Source: Candidatus Siliceabacter maunaloa (GTDB lineage: Bacteria > Actinomycetota > Thermoleophilia > Solirubrobacterales > Solirubrobacteraceae). Taken from it: 60,286 bases of DNA. The notes under the pieces were generated by a model that did no database searches, was not told the DNA's origin, and saw only the letters and a list, made by a program, of their open reading frames with translations. The stretch lies in NCBI GenBank assembly GCA_024330185.1, contig JANDLV010000022.1, positions 1-60,286 on the forward strand. Reading direction: 5' to 3'. Made by a program: the position numbers and the translations under genes. This document shows, piece by piece, positions 15,491 to 25,935 of this stretch (the first letter of the stretch is position 1; every line of letters starts with the position of its first letter).

Positions 15491-16501
15491 ATGCGCGTCT
15501 GGGTCGACCTCACCAACACCGCCCATGTCGTCGTGCTACGCCCCCTGGTCGAGGAGCTCGAGGCGCGTGGGCACGAGGTGGCCATCACGGCGCGACCGCT
15601 GTCGCACACGCTTGAGCTGCTGGATGACTGGGGCCACCCCTACACGGCCCTGGGCCACCATGGGGGTGCGGGGCGCGCGGGCAAGGCGCACGCGGCGGCC
15701 GACCGGGTGGCGCGCATGGTCCGCTTCGGACGGGGACAGCACTTCAACGCAGCGCTGGCCCACGGATCGACCGACCTGCCACCGGCCTGCCGAGTGCTGC
15801 GCGTGCCCAACACGACGATGTTCGACTACGAGTTCGCCTTTGCCCAGCATCACCTCAACTGCCGGGCGGCCACGCGGGTGCTGGTGCCCGAGGCGATCCC
15901 GGCCGACCGCCTGGCCCGCTTCGGCGCCCGCGGGCGCAAGCTCGTGCGCTACCCGGGGCTCAAGGAGGAGTACTACCTGCACCGCCACCCGCCTGACCGG
16001 GCGCTAGCCGCGGCACTGGGCGTGCGGTTCGACGCGGTGCTGTGCGTGGTGCGCACCGCGGCCAGCTACGCCACGTACCTGGGCGGGGCGGAGAGCACCC
16101 ACCTTCCCGGGCTCCTGCGCCACCTCGTGGACCACCCGGACGTCGACGTGGTCGTGCTGCCCCGCACGCCCGAGCAGGGAGAGGCGGTGCGGGCGCTGGG
16201 CCTGGAGCGCGTGCTCGTCCCGCCGCGTGCGGTGGACGGCGGCGCGCTCGTGGCCCTCGCCGACCTGGTGGTCAGCGCGGGCGGAACCATGAACCGCGAG
16301 GCCGCCGCGCTGGGCGTTCCGGTGTGGTCGATGTTCGAGGGGCGCGTTGGGGCGGTGGATGAGTGGCTGGTGCGCGAAGGGCGTCTGAAACTGCTCGGCG
16401 TCCCGGCCGACGTCGTGCCCGTGCGCCGCGACAGGGTCGACGCCCGCGCGGTCAGACGCGACCCGGTGGAGCTTCTTCGCCTGGCTGTTCCCGGGGCGTA
16501 G
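15491..16501 (+). CDS. DUF354 family protein (GT-B-like fold)
   Basis: A 336-residue protein opening with VWVDLTNTAHVVVLRPLVEELEARGHEV, the DUF354 signature. It resembles UDP-GlcNAc 2-epimerase/MurG-type Rossmann folds. VLRVPNTTMFDYEFAF and a C-terminal nucleotide-binding-like segment (LADLVVSAGGTMNREAAALGVPVWS) are conserved features. A role in glycan or sugar-nucleotide metabolism is likely, but the reaction is not established. The 3' end overlaps the convergent pgsA gene by 50 nt. Confidence 0.85.
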   Translation: MRVWVDLTNTAHVVVLRPLVEELEARGHEVAITARPLSHTLELLDDWGHPYTALGHHGGAGRAGKAHAAADRVARMVRFGRGQHFNAALAHGSTDLPPACRVLRVPNTTMFDYEFAFAQHHLNCRAATRVLVPEAIPADRLARFGARGRKLVRYPGLKEEYYLHRHPPDRALAAALGVRFDAVLCVVRTAASYATYLGGAESTHLPGLLRHLVDHPDVDVVVLPRTPEQGEAVRALGLERVLVPPRAVDGGALVALADLVVSAGGTMNREAAALGVPVWSMFEGRVGAVDEWLVREGRLKLLGVPADVVPVRRDRVDARAVRRDPVELLRLAVPGA

Positions 16502-18991: not shown

Positions 18992-19921
18992 ATGTCGCGG
19001 CCCTCGCAGCGCCTGCTGCTGATCGCCAACCCCGCCGCGTCGCGCGTGTCCGGTCGGGTGGTGGACGGCGTGCACCGGGCGCTCTCCGACCGCTTCGCCG
19101 TAGAGGTGGTCTCCACCTCCACCCGCGGCCATGCTACGACACTGTGCCGACGGGCGGCACAGGAGGGTTGGGAGTACGTGGCCGTGCTGGGGGGCGACGG
19201 CACCCACGGCGAGGCCGCCGAAGGCCTGATCGGCACCGCGACGGCGCTGGCGCCCCTGCCCGGCGGATGCACGAACGTCTTCGCGCGCAGCATCGGAACG
19301 GCGCGCATGCCGGTGGAGGCCGCTCGGAGCCTGTCCGCCGCGGGCCTGCGCTCGCGCCGGCGGGTCGACGTCGGCCGGGCCGCCGGGCGGTGCTTCCTCT
19401 TCTCCGCCGGCATCGGGGCGACCGCCGAGCTGATGGAGCGCGCCGCGCGCCGGCCGCGCCAGAAGGGCGTCCTGCGCCAGGCCGCGTTCTGGCTGGCCGG
19501 CGTGTCGCTGGTGGCGGAGCGGCGCCGTCCGCGGCTGCCCGCCTTCCGCGTCGAGGCGGCCGGGCGCGTGGCCCGGGGCGTCTCCCTGATCGCCCAGAAC
19601 GCCTCGCCGCTGACCTACCTGGGCTCTCGGCCCGTCGATGTCTGTCACGGGGCCGGGGCGCAGACGGGCACCTTCTCCTTCACGCTCGCGCACCGAGCGC
19701 GGGCGGGCGACGTCGGCTCAACCCTGCGCCGCCTTCGCACGGGCGACGCCGCGACGATGCTCGACCATCCCCAGCTCGAGGGCTTCACCGCCGTGGCCCA
19801 CGCGCGCGTGGAGGCGCTGGACGAAGGGCCGTTCGCGCTGGAGCTCGACGGTACGGCGGTCGGTCGTCACACGTCCGTGGAGCTCACGGTGGCGCCCGCC
19901 TCCCTCACCGTCGTCGGCTGA
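18992..19921 (+). CDS. diacylglycerol/lipid kinase (YegS/DagK family)
   Basis: A ~309-residue lipid kinase. LLLIANPAAS opens the nucleotide-binding domain, and VLGGDGTHGEAAEG is the ATP-binding GGDGT motif, with His in place of the more common Val/Leu-Asn. LAPLPGGCTNVFARSIG matches the conserved PxGTxNDFAR-like segment, with Cys replacing Thr. A second beta domain ends LELDGTAVGRHTSVELTVAP. ATG 18992 is preferred, and GTG 18950 would add 14 residues. It fits the surrounding phospholipid genes by phosphorylating diacylglycerol or a related lipid. Confidence 0.85.
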   Translation: MSRPSQRLLLIANPAASRVSGRVVDGVHRALSDRFAVEVVSTSTRGHATTLCRRAAQEGWEYVAVLGGDGTHGEAAEGLIGTATALAPLPGGCTNVFARSIGTARMPVEAARSLSAAGLRSRRRVDVGRAAGRCFLFSAGIGATAELMERAARRPRQKGVLRQAAFWLAGVSLVAERRRPRLPAFRVEAAGRVARGVSLIAQNASPLTYLGSRPVDVCHGAGAQTGTFSFTLAHRARAGDVGSTLRRLRTGDAATMLDHPQLEGFTAVAHARVEALDEGPFALELDGTAVGRHTSVELTVAPASLTVVG

Positions 19922-20960
19922 CGGCCTCGGCCAGGACCGCCTCGATGCGCTCGACCTGCCGGCGTAGGTCGTGGCCTGCGGCGGACTCGCGGGCCGCGGG
20001 GTTCGGACGGGGCAGCGCGGCCGCCTCGCGCAGGCCGCGGGCGATGTCCGTGACGTCGTGGGGGTCGACGAGGACCCCCGCCGACGGCGGCACGAACTCC
20101 GGCGGGCCGCCGACACGGGTGGCCACCACGGAGCGCTCCATGGCCATGGCCTCCAGCAGGACCATGCCGAAGGGCTCGGTGAGGCTGGGCAGGCACAGCA
20201 CGTCGCAGTCGGCGATCCACGCGGGCACCTCGTCGTGGCCCACGCGGCCGGCGAGGCGCACGCCGGGCCGGCCCTCGAGCGCCATGCGCAGCGGGCCGTC
20301 GCCCAGCAGGGTGAGGGACCCAGCGCCCAGGGTCGCGAAGGCGTCGGCCAGCGCGACGACGTTCTTGCGCTCGACGAGGGAGCCGACGAAGAGGAAGCGC
20401 GGGCGGGGCGGCGCGGTCGCCGGATCGGCGGTCCGGGGCACCTGCCCTCCGCGCGGCGCCTCCCCTCGCTCCGTGCGCGGCGCGAAGCGCTCGAGGTCGA
20501 CGCCGCAGCTGATCACGTGCGTTCGGCCGGCCGCGGCGGGGATGGCGGCCTCGAGCTCCCTGCGCAGGGCGTCGGAGACGCACACGACCGCGCTCGCACG
20601 AGCGCACGCCCACGCAGTCGCCCGGCGAACCGCGGGCATCGCGGCGGCATTGCGCACGTCCTGACCGTGTGCGGTCAGCACGATGGGCCGGCGGATCAGC
20701 GCGCCCGCGCCGACGGCGAGGACGCCCGCGGGCGCCAGGAAGTGGGCGTAGACGACATCGGGGCGTCGACGCAGCGCCGCGGCCAGGACGCGGATGCCGA
20801 AAGCGGCATGCTTGGTGCGCGGCCCGCCCCGACGATCCACCGCCACGCGGTCGATCGCATGCCCGCGCGCGCCGAGCTCGCGCTCGAGCTGGGCGACGAA
20901 GGTTCCCAGGTCGGGGTCGCCGGGCCCTGGATACATCTGCGAGACCAGGAGGATTCGCAC
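19905..20960 (-). CDS. GT4-family glycosyltransferase
   Basis: A 351-residue GT-B glycosyltransferase. The acceptor domain begins ILLVSQMYPGPGDPDLGTFVAQLERELGARGH, and VISCGVDLERFAP precedes the donor domain (FLFVGSLVERKNV). The E-x7-E region is SLTEPFGMVLLEAMAMERSVVATRVGGPPEF. GT4 enzymes retain configuration and use nucleotide sugars, but the sugar cannot be told. The start is GTG, with AGGA upstream. It overlaps the end of the convergent lipid kinase by 17 nt. Confidence 0.92.
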   Translation of the reverse strand: MRILLVSQMYPGPGDPDLGTFVAQLERELGARGHAIDRVAVDRRGGPRTKHAAFGIRVLAAALRRRPDVVYAHFLAPAGVLAVGAGALIRRPIVLTAHGQDVRNAAAMPAVRRATAWACARASAVVCVSDALRRELEAAIPAAAGRTHVISCGVDLERFAPRTERGEAPRGGQVPRTADPATAPPRPRFLFVGSLVERKNVVALADAFATLGAGSLTLLGDGPLRMALEGRPGVRLAGRVGHDEVPAWIADCDVLCLPSLTEPFGMVLLEAMAMERSVVATRVGGPPEFVPPSAGVLVDPHDVTDIARGLREAAALPRPNPAARESAAGHDLRRQVERIEAVLAEAVSRRR

Positions 20961-20964
20961 AGCC

Positions 20965-22959
20965 CTACAGCGCCGCCACGGCCGGCACGAGGGGGCGCGT
21001 CAGTGCCTGTGTCCAGTGGCTCCGACGCACGGTGGGGTCGGGCTCCGCGTCGAGGCGGGCCACCAGCTCGCGGGCGATGTCGCCGGCCGGAGCTGCCGTG
21101 CCCTCGATCGGCACGCAGCCCGCGAAGCGCTCCACCCCCAGGACCTCGCCCTGGCCCACGAGCACCTCGTCCATGGTCTCCCCCACGCGTACCCCCAGCA
21201 GCGCGATGTCGGGAGCGCCGGCGCGCCCGGCACCGCGCCAGATGCGCTCGGCGACCTCGCCCACACTGAGAGTGACCGGCTCGGCGGCGGTGAGTAGGGG
21301 GACGTCGGCGGCGCTGAGCGCCCCGTGGGCGAGCAGCGTGGCGGCGTGGCCCATGGTGATCCAGTAGCGGCGCATGCCCCCGTCGGTGACCGTCAGCGGC
21401 ACCCCGGCGCGAGCCTGGCGCAGGAAGAGGTCCGACGCGCTGCCCGCGCTGCCCAGCACGTTGACCAGGCGCACGGCGGCACGCCCGCCGTCCGTGCGCT
21501 CCCCGGCCAGAGCGGTGAGGGCCTCCATCAGGCGCTTGGAACGCCCGTAGCGGCCGGCGGCCCGCGCGGCCTTGTCGGTTGAGGCGACCACCACGGTGGC
21601 CTCACCCGCCGCGCGCAGGACGTTCCAGCTGCCATCGAGGTTCGTCGCGGCGAACTCCTCGGGGAACCGCTCGGCCCAGTCGACGTGCTTGTAGGCAGCG
21701 AGGTGGAAGATCACGTCGGGGCGTGCGCGGGCGACCTCCTCCTCCAGACGCCTGCGCTCGCGCACATCGCACAGCACATGCTCGGTACGCACGAGCTCCT
21801 CGGCCTCGCGAGCACGGCGGTCGGCGGTCAGCGAGGCCTCATGGACGTCGAGCAGGGTGAGGGTGCGGGGGCGGAAGGCGAGCAGCAAGCTGGCCAGACT
21901 GGTGCCGATGGAGCCGGCACCGCCCGTGATGAGCACGCGGCGCCCCGCGAAGCGCTCCTCCAGCCCGAGCACCGCAGGCAGCGGGTCCCGGCGGCCCACC
22001 GCACCGGGCCAGTCGAAAGGCTCGGGCCGCAGGCGGGGCGCGCGCGGGTGCCAGCGCTGCGCCGGCTCGCGCAGGGCGGCCTCGATCGCGCGGTGGCCGG
22101 CCTTCATGGCCGGCGAGCGCGCCGGGTCGGGCTCGTTGACCTCGGCGACGATCGCGGGCACCCCCGCGGCGGCCAGGCGGCGCACCACGGGGTCGAGGTC
22201 GAGCTCGCCCTCGCCGTAGGGAAGGCCCTCGCCGAGGACGCCCGTGGCGTCCGAGACGTGGGCGACATGGGTGTGTGCGGCCAGCTCCGCGACGTAACGG
22301 TCGAGCACCAGCTCGTCGGGGTCCCCGATGGCGAACTGCGCGGGCGCCGCGAGCCCGAAGGTCCGAAACAGAGCGGCGTGAGAGGTGTCCAGCGTGAAGC
22401 CCAGGGCGGGGACGCGCTCGCGCCAGGCCAGCAGGTCGCGCCAGTGGCCACCGATCGGCGAGAGGAACACCCCGCCCGTGCGCATGCGCAGGATGGGCGG
22501 CACGTTCTCGATCAGGGGGGTCACGCCGCGCCTCTGGCAGGCGCGCGCGAACGCGTCGAGGAAGGCGTGCACGGCCTCCTCGTCCACGCCCGCCGCGGTG
22601 CGGAAGACCGCAGGCTCCTGGGGCACGAAAAGGTGGATCGTGAGCACGGGAGAGCCGATGCGCGCCGCGAAGTCGGCGCTGCGTTCGATGCCCTCCCGAG
22701 CCTCGGCGGTGAGCTCGTCCACGCGCACGAAGGCGCCGCTGGGCCAGGCGACCGGGGCCTCCGCGGTGACCCGCGCCGGCGCGGGGTCAGCCTCGGTGAC
22801 CGCGCGGACGGCGGCGTCCAGGGCGCCATCGTCGGCCACGTCGGCGGGCATGAGGCACAGCTCCAGCCCGCCCCACGGCCCGCTGGCCAGCCGTTCGGCG
22901 ACCTGCTCAGGCCTGGGCGCGGCCTTCAGCAGCGGGATGGCGGCGCAACCAGTCGACAT
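20965..22959 (-). CDS. fusion of a xylose-isomerase-like TIM barrel and a CapD/FlaA1-like nucleotide-sugar dehydratase
   Basis: A 664-residue two-domain protein. Residues ~1-290 form an AP-endonuclease-2/xylose-isomerase-like barrel with metal-ligand-like segments VLTIHLFVPQ, TPLIENVPP, GFTLDTSHAALF, HTHVAHVSDATG and AIVAEVNEPD. Residues ~335-664 are an extended SDR with GGAGSIGTSL, FHLAAYKHVDWAE, VVASTDKAARAAGRYGRSKRL (Tyr-x3-Lys present) and RYWITMGHAA, hallmarks of CapD/FlaA1 UDP-sugar 4,6-dehydratases. There is no stop or frame break between the halves. It overlaps the downstream epimerase by 53 nt and likely works in glycan precursor synthesis. Confidence 0.88.
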   Translation of the reverse strand: MSTGCAAIPLLKAAPRPEQVAERLASGPWGGLELCLMPADVADDGALDAAVRAVTEADPAPARVTAEAPVAWPSGAFVRVDELTAEAREGIERSADFAARIGSPVLTIHLFVPQEPAVFRTAAGVDEEAVHAFLDAFARACQRRGVTPLIENVPPILRMRTGGVFLSPIGGHWRDLLAWRERVPALGFTLDTSHAALFRTFGLAAPAQFAIGDPDELVLDRYVAELAAHTHVAHVSDATGVLGEGLPYGEGELDLDPVVRRLAAAGVPAIVAEVNEPDPARSPAMKAGHRAIEAALREPAQRWHPRAPRLRPEPFDWPGAVGRRDPLPAVLGLEERFAGRRVLITGGAGSIGTSLASLLLAFRPRTLTLLDVHEASLTADRRAREAEELVRTEHVLCDVRERRRLEEEVARARPDVIFHLAAYKHVDWAERFPEEFAATNLDGSWNVLRAAGEATVVVASTDKAARAAGRYGRSKRLMEALTALAGERTDGGRAAVRLVNVLGSAGSASDLFLRQARAGVPLTVTDGGMRRYWITMGHAATLLAHGALSAADVPLLTAAEPVTLSVGEVAERIWRGAGRAGAPDIALLGVRVGETMDEVLVGQGEVLGVERFAGCVPIEGTAAPAGDIARELVARLDAEPDPTVRRSHWTQALTRPLVPAVAAL

Positions 22960-23791
22960 AGTCGGTGACCGCCTCCCGAAGGGGACGGGCGGTCAAGGAT
23001 AGACGCCCGTCCGCGGAGGACGGCGCATAGCTCTCGTTCTCGCCCGGTGGCAGATCACCTCCCGGCAGCTCGATCTCCACGCCGGTGCCCGCGGCGTCGC
23101 GCGCGGCGCGCGCCGCCTCCAGTAGCGGCGTCGAGGTCCCGCTGGCGGCAGTGAGCATCCTGTCCCAGGGCCCCTCACGCAGCAGGCGCTCAAGGCCCTC
23201 GACCAGGTCGTCGACGTAGAGGAAGTCACGCGTGCGGCCGGGCGCGCCGGGGATCACGATGGGCCTGCCCTCCAGGGCCCGGGCCACGAAGGCGGCGATC
23301 GCGCCGGTGGCGCCCTCCCAGGCGACCTGGCCGGGCCCGAAGACGCTGGCCAGGCGCACCACTGCCGTCGGCGCGGTGTGGAGGCGACAGGCCTCCTCGC
23401 CCAGCCGCTTGGAGGCCGCGTAGGGATCAGGGGCGGGCTCGAGGGCGGCGCGCACGGAGGAGGGATAGACCAGCGCGACGCCGTGGTGGGCGCACCCCTC
23501 GAGCAGGTTCAGCGTCGTGCCGACGTTCGCTCGCACGGCGGCGGCGGGGTCGACGCGGGCGCGGGCCGGATCGGGGATGCCCGCGAAGTGCAGGACGGCC
23601 TCGTGGCCGGCGACGAGGTCACGCGCCGCGGGGTCGCCCGCGTCGCAGGCCACAATGTCAAGGCCGCGAGCGGCGGCGCGGTCCCGCGCGCCCGGGCGGG
23701 TCAGCGCGGTGACCGTGTGCCCACGCTCACGCAGCAGCACCGTGGCGCGCCAGCCCAGGTACCCGGTGGCGCCCGTGACCAGGAGCCTCAC
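22907..23791 (-). CDS. NAD(P)-dependent sugar-nucleotide epimerase/dehydratase
   Basis: A 294-residue extended SDR. VTGATGYLG is the cofactor loop, LHFAGIPDPAR follows strand 4, and PDPYAASKRLGEEACRL carries Tyr-x3-Lys. TRDFLYVDDLVEGLERLL is the typical C-terminal substrate-domain motif. The GTG start at 23791 overlaps the stop of the upstream epimerase as GTGA, and the 3' end overlaps the fusion gene, so the three are translationally coupled. Confidence 0.88.
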   Translation of the reverse strand: MRLLVTGATGYLGWRATVLLRERGHTVTALTRPGARDRAAARGLDIVACDAGDPAARDLVAGHEAVLHFAGIPDPARARVDPAAAVRANVGTTLNLLEGCAHHGVALVYPSSVRAALEPAPDPYAASKRLGEEACRLHTAPTAVVRLASVFGPGQVAWEGATGAIAAFVARALEGRPIVIPGAPGRTRDFLYVDDLVEGLERLLREGPWDRMLTAASGTSTPLLEAARAARDAAGTGVEIELPGGDLPPGENESYAPSSADGRLSLTARPLREAVTDYVDWLRRHPAAEGRAQA

Positions 23792-24645
23792 CGGGCCAGG
23801 TACCCCGCCACCTCGTGCGTGTAGGCGAACGGGCTGCGCACCGTGTAGGCGGCCCCGCCGGCTGGCGCGCGGCCCTCGGCCAGTGCGGCCACGTCCGCCA
23901 CGGTGATGGTCTGCGCCGCCACGTCGTGGGCGACGACTCCCGGCCCGGGCACGCAGTCGTGCAGGATGCGTGCGCAATCGTCGAGGTGGACGACACCGAT
24001 GGTGGCCGTCCCGCCGTCGTCGAAGGGCAGCGGCTCCCCCGCGGCGGCGAGGCCGGCGAACCTGTCCACCACCGTCTGCGACCCGGCGCGCTCGTGGACC
24101 ACCGGGCCCGACCCGTAGACGATGCCCAGGCGCAGGAGCACGACCGCCAGGCCGTGACGCTGGGCGTACAGGCGCAGGCAGAGCTCTCCGTAGACCTTGG
24201 ACAGGTGGGCCAGGTCGCCCTGAACGCCGTAGGGCCGGTCGGCGGCGACCTGTCCGCTCAGCTCGGAGCCGTAGACGTGCAGCGAGCTGGCGAACACCAG
24301 GGGCGGCCCGCCGCGCGCGGCCACCGCCTCGGCCACGCGGCGCACGCCCGTGACGTTGGTCGCCTCGGTGTAGTCCGGCTCCGTGATGGACAGCGGCCGG
24401 CTGGCCTGGGCGGCAAGCAGGTGCACGCGGTCGGGGGCCGTGGCGCGCAGCATGCCCTCGACGGCGTCGCGATCGCGGATGTCCAGCGTGACCACATCGG
24501 CTCCCCGTGCGGCCAGGCCGTCCAGCTGCGCGCGGTCGGTGGCGTACCAGTTGTCGGCGAGCACGACCTCGCCTCCAGCTTCCAGCGCACGCGCGGCCAG
24601 CGCAGCGCCGATGTAGCCGGCGCCGAGGATGAGCAGGCGCGCCAT
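23788..24645 (-). CDS. NAD-dependent epimerase/dehydratase-like protein with altered active site
   Basis: A 285-residue extended SDR. LILGAGYIGAAL is the nucleotide loop, VHLLAAQASRPLSITEP follows, and LVFASSLHVYGS supplies the Ser. At the Tyr-x3-Lys position the sequence is Ala-His-Leu-Ser-Lys, so Lys is kept and Tyr is lost. TIGVVHLDDCARIL matches the family's C-terminal motif. It is first of a three-gene coupled set and divergent from the MraY/WecA-like gene. It may be a binding protein or an enzyme using another acid. Confidence 0.82.
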   Translation of the reverse strand: MARLLILGAGYIGAALAARALEAGGEVVLADNWYATDRAQLDGLAARGADVVTLDIRDRDAVEGMLRATAPDRVHLLAAQASRPLSITEPDYTEATNVTGVRRVAEAVAARGGPPLVFASSLHVYGSELSGQVAADRPYGVQGDLAHLSKVYGELCLRLYAQRHGLAVVLLRLGIVYGSGPVVHERAGSQTVVDRFAGLAAAGEPLPFDDGGTATIGVVHLDDCARILHDCVPGPGVVAHDVAAQTITVADVAALAEGRAPAGGAAYTVRSPFAYTHEVAGYLAR

Positions 24646-24711: not shown

Positions 24712-25935
24712 ATGTCCTTCAGCGAGACGCTGTCTGCCCTCGCTCAGGAGGGCGCCGTCTTGGCGGGCCTCGCGATCGCGCTGGCCATCGCCCTTGTCGC
24801 AACGCCGCTCGCCGGTCGCCTCGCCGGCGTGGGCGGCGGGGTCGACCCCGTCGATCGCCCACGCATCCACACCATCCCGACGCCGAACACCGGTGGGGTG
24901 GCGATCGTGCTGGCGATCGCCGCGGGCTCGCTGGTCTTCGTCGACCTGAGCGGTTCGATGGCGGGGATCTTCGTCGGGCTCCCGTTCGTCGCTGCGCTCG
25001 GGCTGCTCGACGACCGGCGGGGGCTGCGGCCCCTGATCAAGCTGGCGTGCCTCACGGCCATCGTCCTCATCCCGGTGGTCGCATACGGCTTGTCCTTCGA
25101 TCGCGTGACGCTGCCCGTGCTGGGCGACGGCGACCTGGGCTGGGTCGCCTACCCGCTGACCATCCTGTGGATCGTCCTCGTCGCCAACCTGGTGAACCTC
25201 ATCGACGGGATGGACGCCCTCGCCGCGGGCATCGTGGCCATCGCGGCCGCCACCCTGGCGCTCATGGCAGTGTCGTTCGGCCGGTTGGATGTCGCGGTGG
25301 TCGCGGCCGCCGTGTGCGGCGCCACGCTGGGCTTCCTGTGGCACAACTACCACCCGGCCAAGATCTTCATGGGCGACAGCGGCGCGCTCAGCCTCGGCTA
25401 CCTGCTGGCCGCGCTGTCGGTCGAGGGGCTGCTCAAGACCCCGGCGACCATCACGCTGCTGGCCCCGCTGCTCATCATTGCCGTGCCGCTGCTGGACACC
25501 TCGTTCGTCGTTCTCAAGCGGCTGAAGTATCGCCGCCCACCGTTCGGGGCCGACCACAACCACTTCTACCACCGCTTCCTACGCATCGGCTTCTCGCAGC
25601 GGCGAACGGCGGCCTACCTGCATCTCTGGGCGGCCGCGCTGGCCGCCTGGGCCATCCTCGTGCGCTTCCTGCCACCCCGTCCGACCGGTGACTGGGACCT
25701 GAGCAACTCGCTCATCGTCGGCGGGACCGGCCTGGCCGTCGCGGCCGGCTCGATCTGGATGGTCTACACCCTGGAGATCCTCAAGTTCCGCCGCCTCGAC
25801 GCCCTGCGCCTGCGCCGCACCCGCCCCGCCGCGACGGAGACCGAGATCCGCGGCGAGGTCGAGCAGGACCTCGAGACCGGCGAGTTCCAGGCCGTCAGCG
25901 CCGAGACCGGCGAGTTCGGCGCGGTCGGCCGGTAG
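24712..25935 (+). CDS. polyprenyl-phosphate sugar-1-phosphate transferase (MraY/WecA/TagO family)
   Basis: A 407-residue integral membrane enzyme with about ten helices that transfers HexNAc-1-phosphate from UDP-HexNAc to undecaprenyl phosphate, the first step of cell-wall or surface glycan assembly. Key segments are ALGLLDDRRGLRP (Asp-Asp), NLVNLIDGMDALAAG, AKIFMGDSGALSLGY and the cytoplasmic His-rich loop FGADHNHFYHRFLRIG. The C-terminal ~60 residues are a charged tail with a near-repeat ETGEFQAVSAETGEFGAV. The gene sits between glyA and the atp operon, as wecA-like genes often do in actinobacteria. Confidence 0.92.
   Translation: MSFSETLSALAQEGAVLAGLAIALAIALVATPLAGRLAGVGGGVDPVDRPRIHTIPTPNTGGVAIVLAIAAGSLVFVDLSGSMAGIFVGLPFVAALGLLDDRRGLRPLIKLACLTAIVLIPVVAYGLSFDRVTLPVLGDGDLGWVAYPLTILWIVLVANLVNLIDGMDALAAGIVAIAAATLALMAVSFGRLDVAVVAAAVCGATLGFLWHNYHPAKIFMGDSGALSLGYLLAALSVEGLLKTPATITLLAPLLIIAVPLLDTSFVVLKRLKYRRPPFGADHNHFYHRFLRIGFSQRRTAAYLHLWAAALAAWAILVRFLPPRPTGDWDLSNSLIVGGTGLAVAAGSIWMVYTLEILKFRRLDALRLRRTRPAATETEIRGEVEQDLETGEFQAVSAETGEFGAVGR

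Follow-up and report, generated by a model that had tools for sequence, protein, structure and literature searches.

A xylose-isomerase-like barrel fused to a CapD/PglF-type dehydratase in Thermoleophilia, a candidate bifunctional enzyme of surface-glycan sugar synthesis

A single reading frame of Candidatus Siliceabacter maunaloa joins a xylose-isomerase-like barrel to a CapD/PglF-type SDR dehydratase, and this fusion recurs in about 20 independent genome assemblies of the class Thermoleophilia, at 60–91% identity and across many genera. Both parts belong to known enzyme families; the combination is new, not the kind of system. Our tentative interpretation, held at somewhat less than even confidence, is a bifunctional enzyme for an activated surface-glycan sugar, in which the dehydratase would produce a UDP-4-keto-6-deoxy-HexNAc and the barrel would epimerise or isomerise a keto-sugar of the same pathway. 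The product is probably an unusual cell-surface sugar. A limited literature search returned no description of this architecture.

Domain architecture and active sites

The window, that is the whole stretch of DNA analysed (60,286 nucleotides, contig JANDLV010000022.1), contains the fusion as follows.

20965..22959, minus strand: fusion gene, 664 residues, barrel plus CapD/PglF-type dehydratase (open reading frame, Pfam, conservation in about 20 genomes)
22060..22959, minus strand: barrel domain, residues ~1–300 (Pfam, alignment, predicted structure, structural matches)
21952..22059, minus strand: linker, residues 301–336 (comparison by eye, PglF alignment)
21130..21951, minus strand: SDR dehydratase domain, residues ~337–610 (Pfam, alignment, solved-structure matches)

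The sequence-only reading had proposed one 664-residue frame uniting two enzyme classes, and the open reading frame list (ATG start, 664 codons, uninterrupted) and Pfam bear this out, both domains scoring above curated cut-offs. AP_endonuc_2, the xylose-isomerase-like barrel, matches residues 77–287 (E 2e-14; 54.3 bits against a gathering score of 31.1), and Polysacc_synt_2 (PF02719, CapD/PglF-type SDR) matches residues 342–607 (E 1.5e-52; 179 bits against a cut-off of 20.2). The barrel, at about residues 7–300, precedes the dehydratase in the same chain. The start of the gene is uncertain, as the alignments of three relatives (L028, L030 and L031) begin only at residue 7–10. A predicted model of the full-length protein reached a pTM of 0.55, from which the facing of the two active sites is not readable.

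The SDR half carries TGGAGSIG at residues 345–352, S460-T461-D462-K463 and Y471-x3-K475, and [ST]DK..Y/M-x3-K has been described as the catalytic motif of UDP-GlcNAc dehydratases (PMC8987622). Across 19 aligned fusions, two of them truncated, K424, S460-T461-D462-K463, Y471 and K475 are invariant and the TGG.G.IG pattern is retained; all 19 relatives match Polysacc_synt_2. Solved-structure matches comprise PglF, the best (338–344 aligned columns), and the short enzymes Pen, PseB and CapE/WbjB (E 1e-16 to 1e-23). On these grounds the half can be predicted with good reason to be a 4,6-dehydratase of UDP-HexNAc. The more specific PseB (TIGR03589) and FnlA (TIGR04130) equivalogs did not reach their curated cut-offs, scoring 100 bits against 408 and 72 bits against 730, respectively.

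Long-form WbpM, PglF/WlaL and CapD proteins (PF02719) have this C-terminal half in common with the fusion, and the second half of the fusion linker resembles, by eye, that of long-form CapD proteins. The best matches within the order are likewise C-terminal halves of CapD-type proteins, in open frames of ~640–750 residues, and the long forms of the class itself (~650 residues) are similar to the fusion in length. However, WbpM, PglF and these long forms possess another N-terminal half where the fusion has its barrel, and Met at the catalytic position where the fusions carry the invariant Tyr471. The simplest reading of the sequences is that the fusion would be a long-form dehydratase whose N-terminal half has been swapped for a barrel. 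Short PseB/FlaA1, CapE/WbjB and Pen enzymes share the T-D-K..Y-x3-K motif, but they are stand-alone SDRs of ~340 residues and, within the class, match the fusion more weakly than the long forms do. The motif fits the C5-inverting type and Pen, whereas in structure the retaining PglF is nearest. Phylogenetically, the fusion SDRs group as a single clade (support 100/99), separate from 13 long and 4 short sequences; eight further sequences in which the trimming motif was absent were left out, and under midpoint rooting the sister group is not settled.

Predicted alone, the N-terminal half gives a good (beta/alpha)8 barrel (pTM 0.81, mean pLDDT 77), and 18 of the 19 relatives match AP_endonuc_2 at E 0.001. 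A search of the PDB gave no sequence relative. The best VIA-align matches of the model are D-allulose, L-ribulose and D-tagatose 3-epimerases with close relatives including the isomerase Art22 (Z ~21.5–23), followed by UlaE, YcjR, IolE and mannonate dehydratase (Z 19.5–21; YcjR 19.8). In the 3-epimerases, Glu152, Asp185, His211 and Glu246 bind the metal, and both glutamates exchange the C3 proton via an enediolate (PMC8167858). The presumed ligands of the fusion barrel, E151, D191, H234 and E273, lie at the ends of strands 5, 6, 7 and 8 and provide the same E-D-H-E set, matched by strand position rather than by superposed coordinates. Identity to the ketose 3-epimerases in structural alignments is nevertheless ~10–16%, and the fusion barrel is joined to a dehydratase. 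Fold and metal site together suggest an isomerase or epimerase, although fold likeness does not prove activity; its barrel type and E-D-H-E pattern are those of the ketose 3-epimerases, but we do not file it with that family, which is defined by C3 epimerisation of free ketoses.

Invariant barrel residues in the 19-sequence alignment are H109 (an additional His at the end of strand 4), E151, D191, H194, H234, E244, E273, N275 and E276. The motifs first noted in both halves are present, the barrel's metal site is conserved, and the suggestion that both halves look active holds to the extent that both active sites are invariant across the family. Comparison of the window with its nearest relative gave dN/dS values of 0.13 (barrel), 0.29 (linker), 0.22 (SDR) and 0.35 (tail). 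Purifying selection acts on both halves, and the low dN/dS together with the invariant active sites indicates that both domains are maintained.

Distant relatives of the barrel occur behind another enzyme. A profile search of 396 genomes sampled from the rest of the phylum recovered as sole barrel relative one fused behind NeuB and SAF (G619); 40 genomes from the class of G619 contained no further copy. Plasmid and phage collections yielded matches to the SDR half only, plus one NeuB-barrel on an Ensifer plasmid.

L067 2–1870, minus strand: NeuB-SAF-AP_endonuc_2 fusion, another class of the phylum
L092 10504–12897, plus strand: NeuB-SAF-AP_endonuc_2 fusion, Ensifer plasmid

These proteins contain the same barrel subfamily as the fusion, placed behind a nonulosonate synthase instead of before a dehydratase. 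Profile–profile comparison of the two barrel types gave E 6.8e-10 over 133 columns, and the motifs N.PP, D.SH..L and H.(S/A)DA.G..GEGL..G.G, located around the metal ligands, are common to both; the strand-5 Glu is Gln in the Ensifer protein. The Ensifer gene adjoins a putative CMP-sugar synthetase, named from its sequence. The barrel subfamily is thus joined to at least two different glycan-sugar synthesis enzymes.

Gene neighbourhood

Five further genes of the window bear on the pathway setting.

15491..16501, plus strand: DUF354-type (GT-B-like) protein (named from sequence)
19905..20960, minus strand: GT4 glycosyltransferase (open reading frame, Pfam)
22907..23791, minus strand: SDR1, NAD-dependent epimerase/dehydratase family, Y-x3-K (Pfam, alignment)
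23788..24645, minus strand: SDR2, GalE-like SDR without the usual catalytic Tyr (Pfam, alignment)
24712..25935, plus strand, start approximate: WecA/MraY-type polyprenyl-phosphate sugar-1-phosphate transferase (sequence features)

The minus-strand run reads SDR2, SDR1, fusion, GT4. Two further epimerases had been said to overlap the fusion; one does, SDR1 by 53 bp, whereas SDR2 overlaps SDR1 (a 4-bp GTGA overlap) and not the fusion. GT4 starts 4 bp past the fusion stop, an adjacency seen in some relatives only, and wecA is divergent from SDR2. Wherever the contigs of relatives extend far enough, SDR2, SDR1 and the fusion form one group that has wecA as its neighbour. The DUF354-type gene, whose product has no NCBIfam hit, lies beside wecA in many relatives and 8 kb away in the window. 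In fusion-less genomes (L013–L020) a long-form CapD gene is found near a DUF354-like gene, a pair that seems to travel together. In the nearest relative (L021 2464–6123), wecA-like matches are fragmented and partly doubled and an SDR2 fragment sits on the opposite strand, reflecting local duplication or assembly trouble.

SDR1 is presumed to be the keto-reductase or epimerase of the pathway. In SDR2, the catalytic Tyr four residues before the Lys is missing from all aligned relatives, and a conserved DL.HLSK motif occupies the site in 17 relatives, so that SDR2 may not be a standard oxidoreductase. Many relatives encode a nucleotide-sugar 6-dehydrogenase of ~430 residues, nearest the WecC/Cap5O type, between wecA and SDR2 (L027 4986–6287; L031 4955–6244); its best match in the window's genome, at 69%, is on another contig (G000:C88:66513-67805). 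The gene set resembles capsule and O-antigen pathways that pair a 6-deoxy-HexNAc with a HexNAc-uronic acid. The NeuB fusion also raised the possibility of a nonulosonate pathway; no NeuB was recognised in the conserved cluster, and that of the window's genome lies on another contig.

Proposed function and alternatives

In the proposed bifunctional enzyme, the C-terminal SDR with bound NAD(P)+ would oxidise C4 of a UDP-HexNAc, probably UDP-GlcNAc, Asp462 and Lys463 would eliminate water across C5–C6, and return of the hydride to C6 would give UDP-4-keto-6-deoxy-HexNAc. The N-terminal barrel would hold one divalent metal through its four presumed ligands, chelating the keto group and the adjacent hydroxyl, while the two glutamates, as acid and base, would epimerise the carbon beside the keto group or shift that group via an enediolate. 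The keto group would next be reduced by SDR1, giving the sugar on which WecA and the glycosyltransferases would act. This proposal is supported by the invariant sites, the dN/dS values, the SDR matches and motif, the 3-epimerase-like barrel, the conserved operon and the presence of a barrel relative on NeuB, another glycan-sugar enzyme. It gains further support from YcjR, which shares the fold and is cited as a 3-keto-D-glucoside 4-epimerase, and which thereby sets a precedent for keto-glycosides as substrates of such a barrel; YcjR is, however, a stand-alone catabolic enzyme whose substrate is not a nucleotide sugar. The proposal is weakened because the fold family also includes isomerases, lyases and dehydratases, so that the barrel reaction is not fixed, and because 3-epimerases of known structure use free ketoses rather than nucleotide sugars.

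The sequence-only reading, which saw in a bifunctional isomerase/dehydratase a new route to a modified sugar nucleotide, is supported in part: the fusion, the intact sites and the conserved operon bear it out. What the barrel acts on, and whether its step is coupled to the dehydration, we infer only weakly. The most natural substrate would be the 4-keto sugar formed by the attached dehydratase. Perhaps, on odds of roughly one in three, the barrel acts directly on this nucleotide-linked sugar to yield a 3-epimer or 3-keto isomer, without the cupin-type or SDR-type enzymes that normally handle NDP-keto-sugars. Alternatively, both domains may be active in one pathway on different intermediates, the barrel serving a free, phosphorylated or UDP-released sugar and the fusion merely keeping the enzymes together. 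This is a serious contender, itself short of an even chance: structurally known members of the fold mostly take free or phosphorylated sugars as substrates, the barrel relative joined to NeuB would adjoin a user of free amino-hexoses (a substrate known from the family), and the 6-dehydrogenase of many relatives marks a second branch, so that several sugars would be made and the barrel might serve another of them. Against it, the conserved cluster contained no recognisable kinase, phosphatase or NDP-sugar hydrolase, as judged from the window genes and large frames in the gaps.

A metal-dependent lyase, dehydratase or hydrolase acting on a keto-sugar or UDP-sugar is improbable. Mannonate dehydratase and AP-endonuclease-like proteins belong to the fold family, Mn-dependent barrels that beta-eliminate 3-keto-glycosides have been described (PMC10628242), and the extra invariant H109 would suit such a role, but every top structural match is a 3-epimerase or a close relative of one, and the E-D-H-E ligands are the same. 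Less probable still is a non-catalytic barrel that stands in for the N-terminal half of the long forms as a scaffold or oligomerisation domain. It does sit where that half sits in WbpM and PglF, and in WbpM the half anchors the protein in the membrane and is dispensable for activity; yet the presumed metal ligands are all invariant, as are many pocket residues, and constraint is stronger on the barrel than on the SDR.

Distribution and significance

A search for the same domain order had been suggested as a check, and that order was found in about 20 Thermoleophilia species. The figure of about 20 species is a union of scans in which many genomes are the same assemblies found by two tools. A single frame encodes the full fusion in 10 of 61 related genomes, the window's included, and an eleventh copy is cut by a contig end. 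A scan for short peptide patterns in one genome per species across GTDB gave 19 loci, all in records titled Thermoleophilia, its families or orders, or unplaced Actinobacteria/Actinomycetota MAGs. Among 299 Thermoleophilia genomes the barrel is present in 16, each time fused or cut by a contig end, with no stand-alone orthologue. As the scans rest on conserved patterns or genome samples, absence beyond these loci covers the sampled set only.

Separately encoded halves, raised at the outset as a possible refutation, were not seen in these 299 genomes. Candidate split genes were rejected, the other barrel hits being cut at contig ends (G060, G241) or a NeuB-type fragment (G011). The last was the only genome added by a wider profile that included NeuB-type barrels; there, a NeuB-type barrel C-terminus (L104 3574–5160, minus strand) follows an unrelated upstream frame, so that either the gene is truncated or the assembly is broken there. 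That the fusion itself is an artefact of assembly or deletion has a negligible chance, for although the window's genome is a draft of 120 contigs and the named relatives come from metagenome assemblies, the identical joint, without stops and with conserved flanks, recurs in so many independent assemblies. Many relatives carry the cluster in the same neighbourhood (glyA, yrdC, hemK, prfA and often atpB), a pattern suggestive of old vertical inheritance with losses.

Should the barrel act on a nucleotide sugar, NDP-sugar biosynthesis would gain an enzyme class, and an unknown surface sugar would be indicated in soil bacteria that are mostly uncultured. The fusion of the same barrel subfamily to NeuB further suggests that several glycan-sugar pathways of bacteria include a step still to be assigned.
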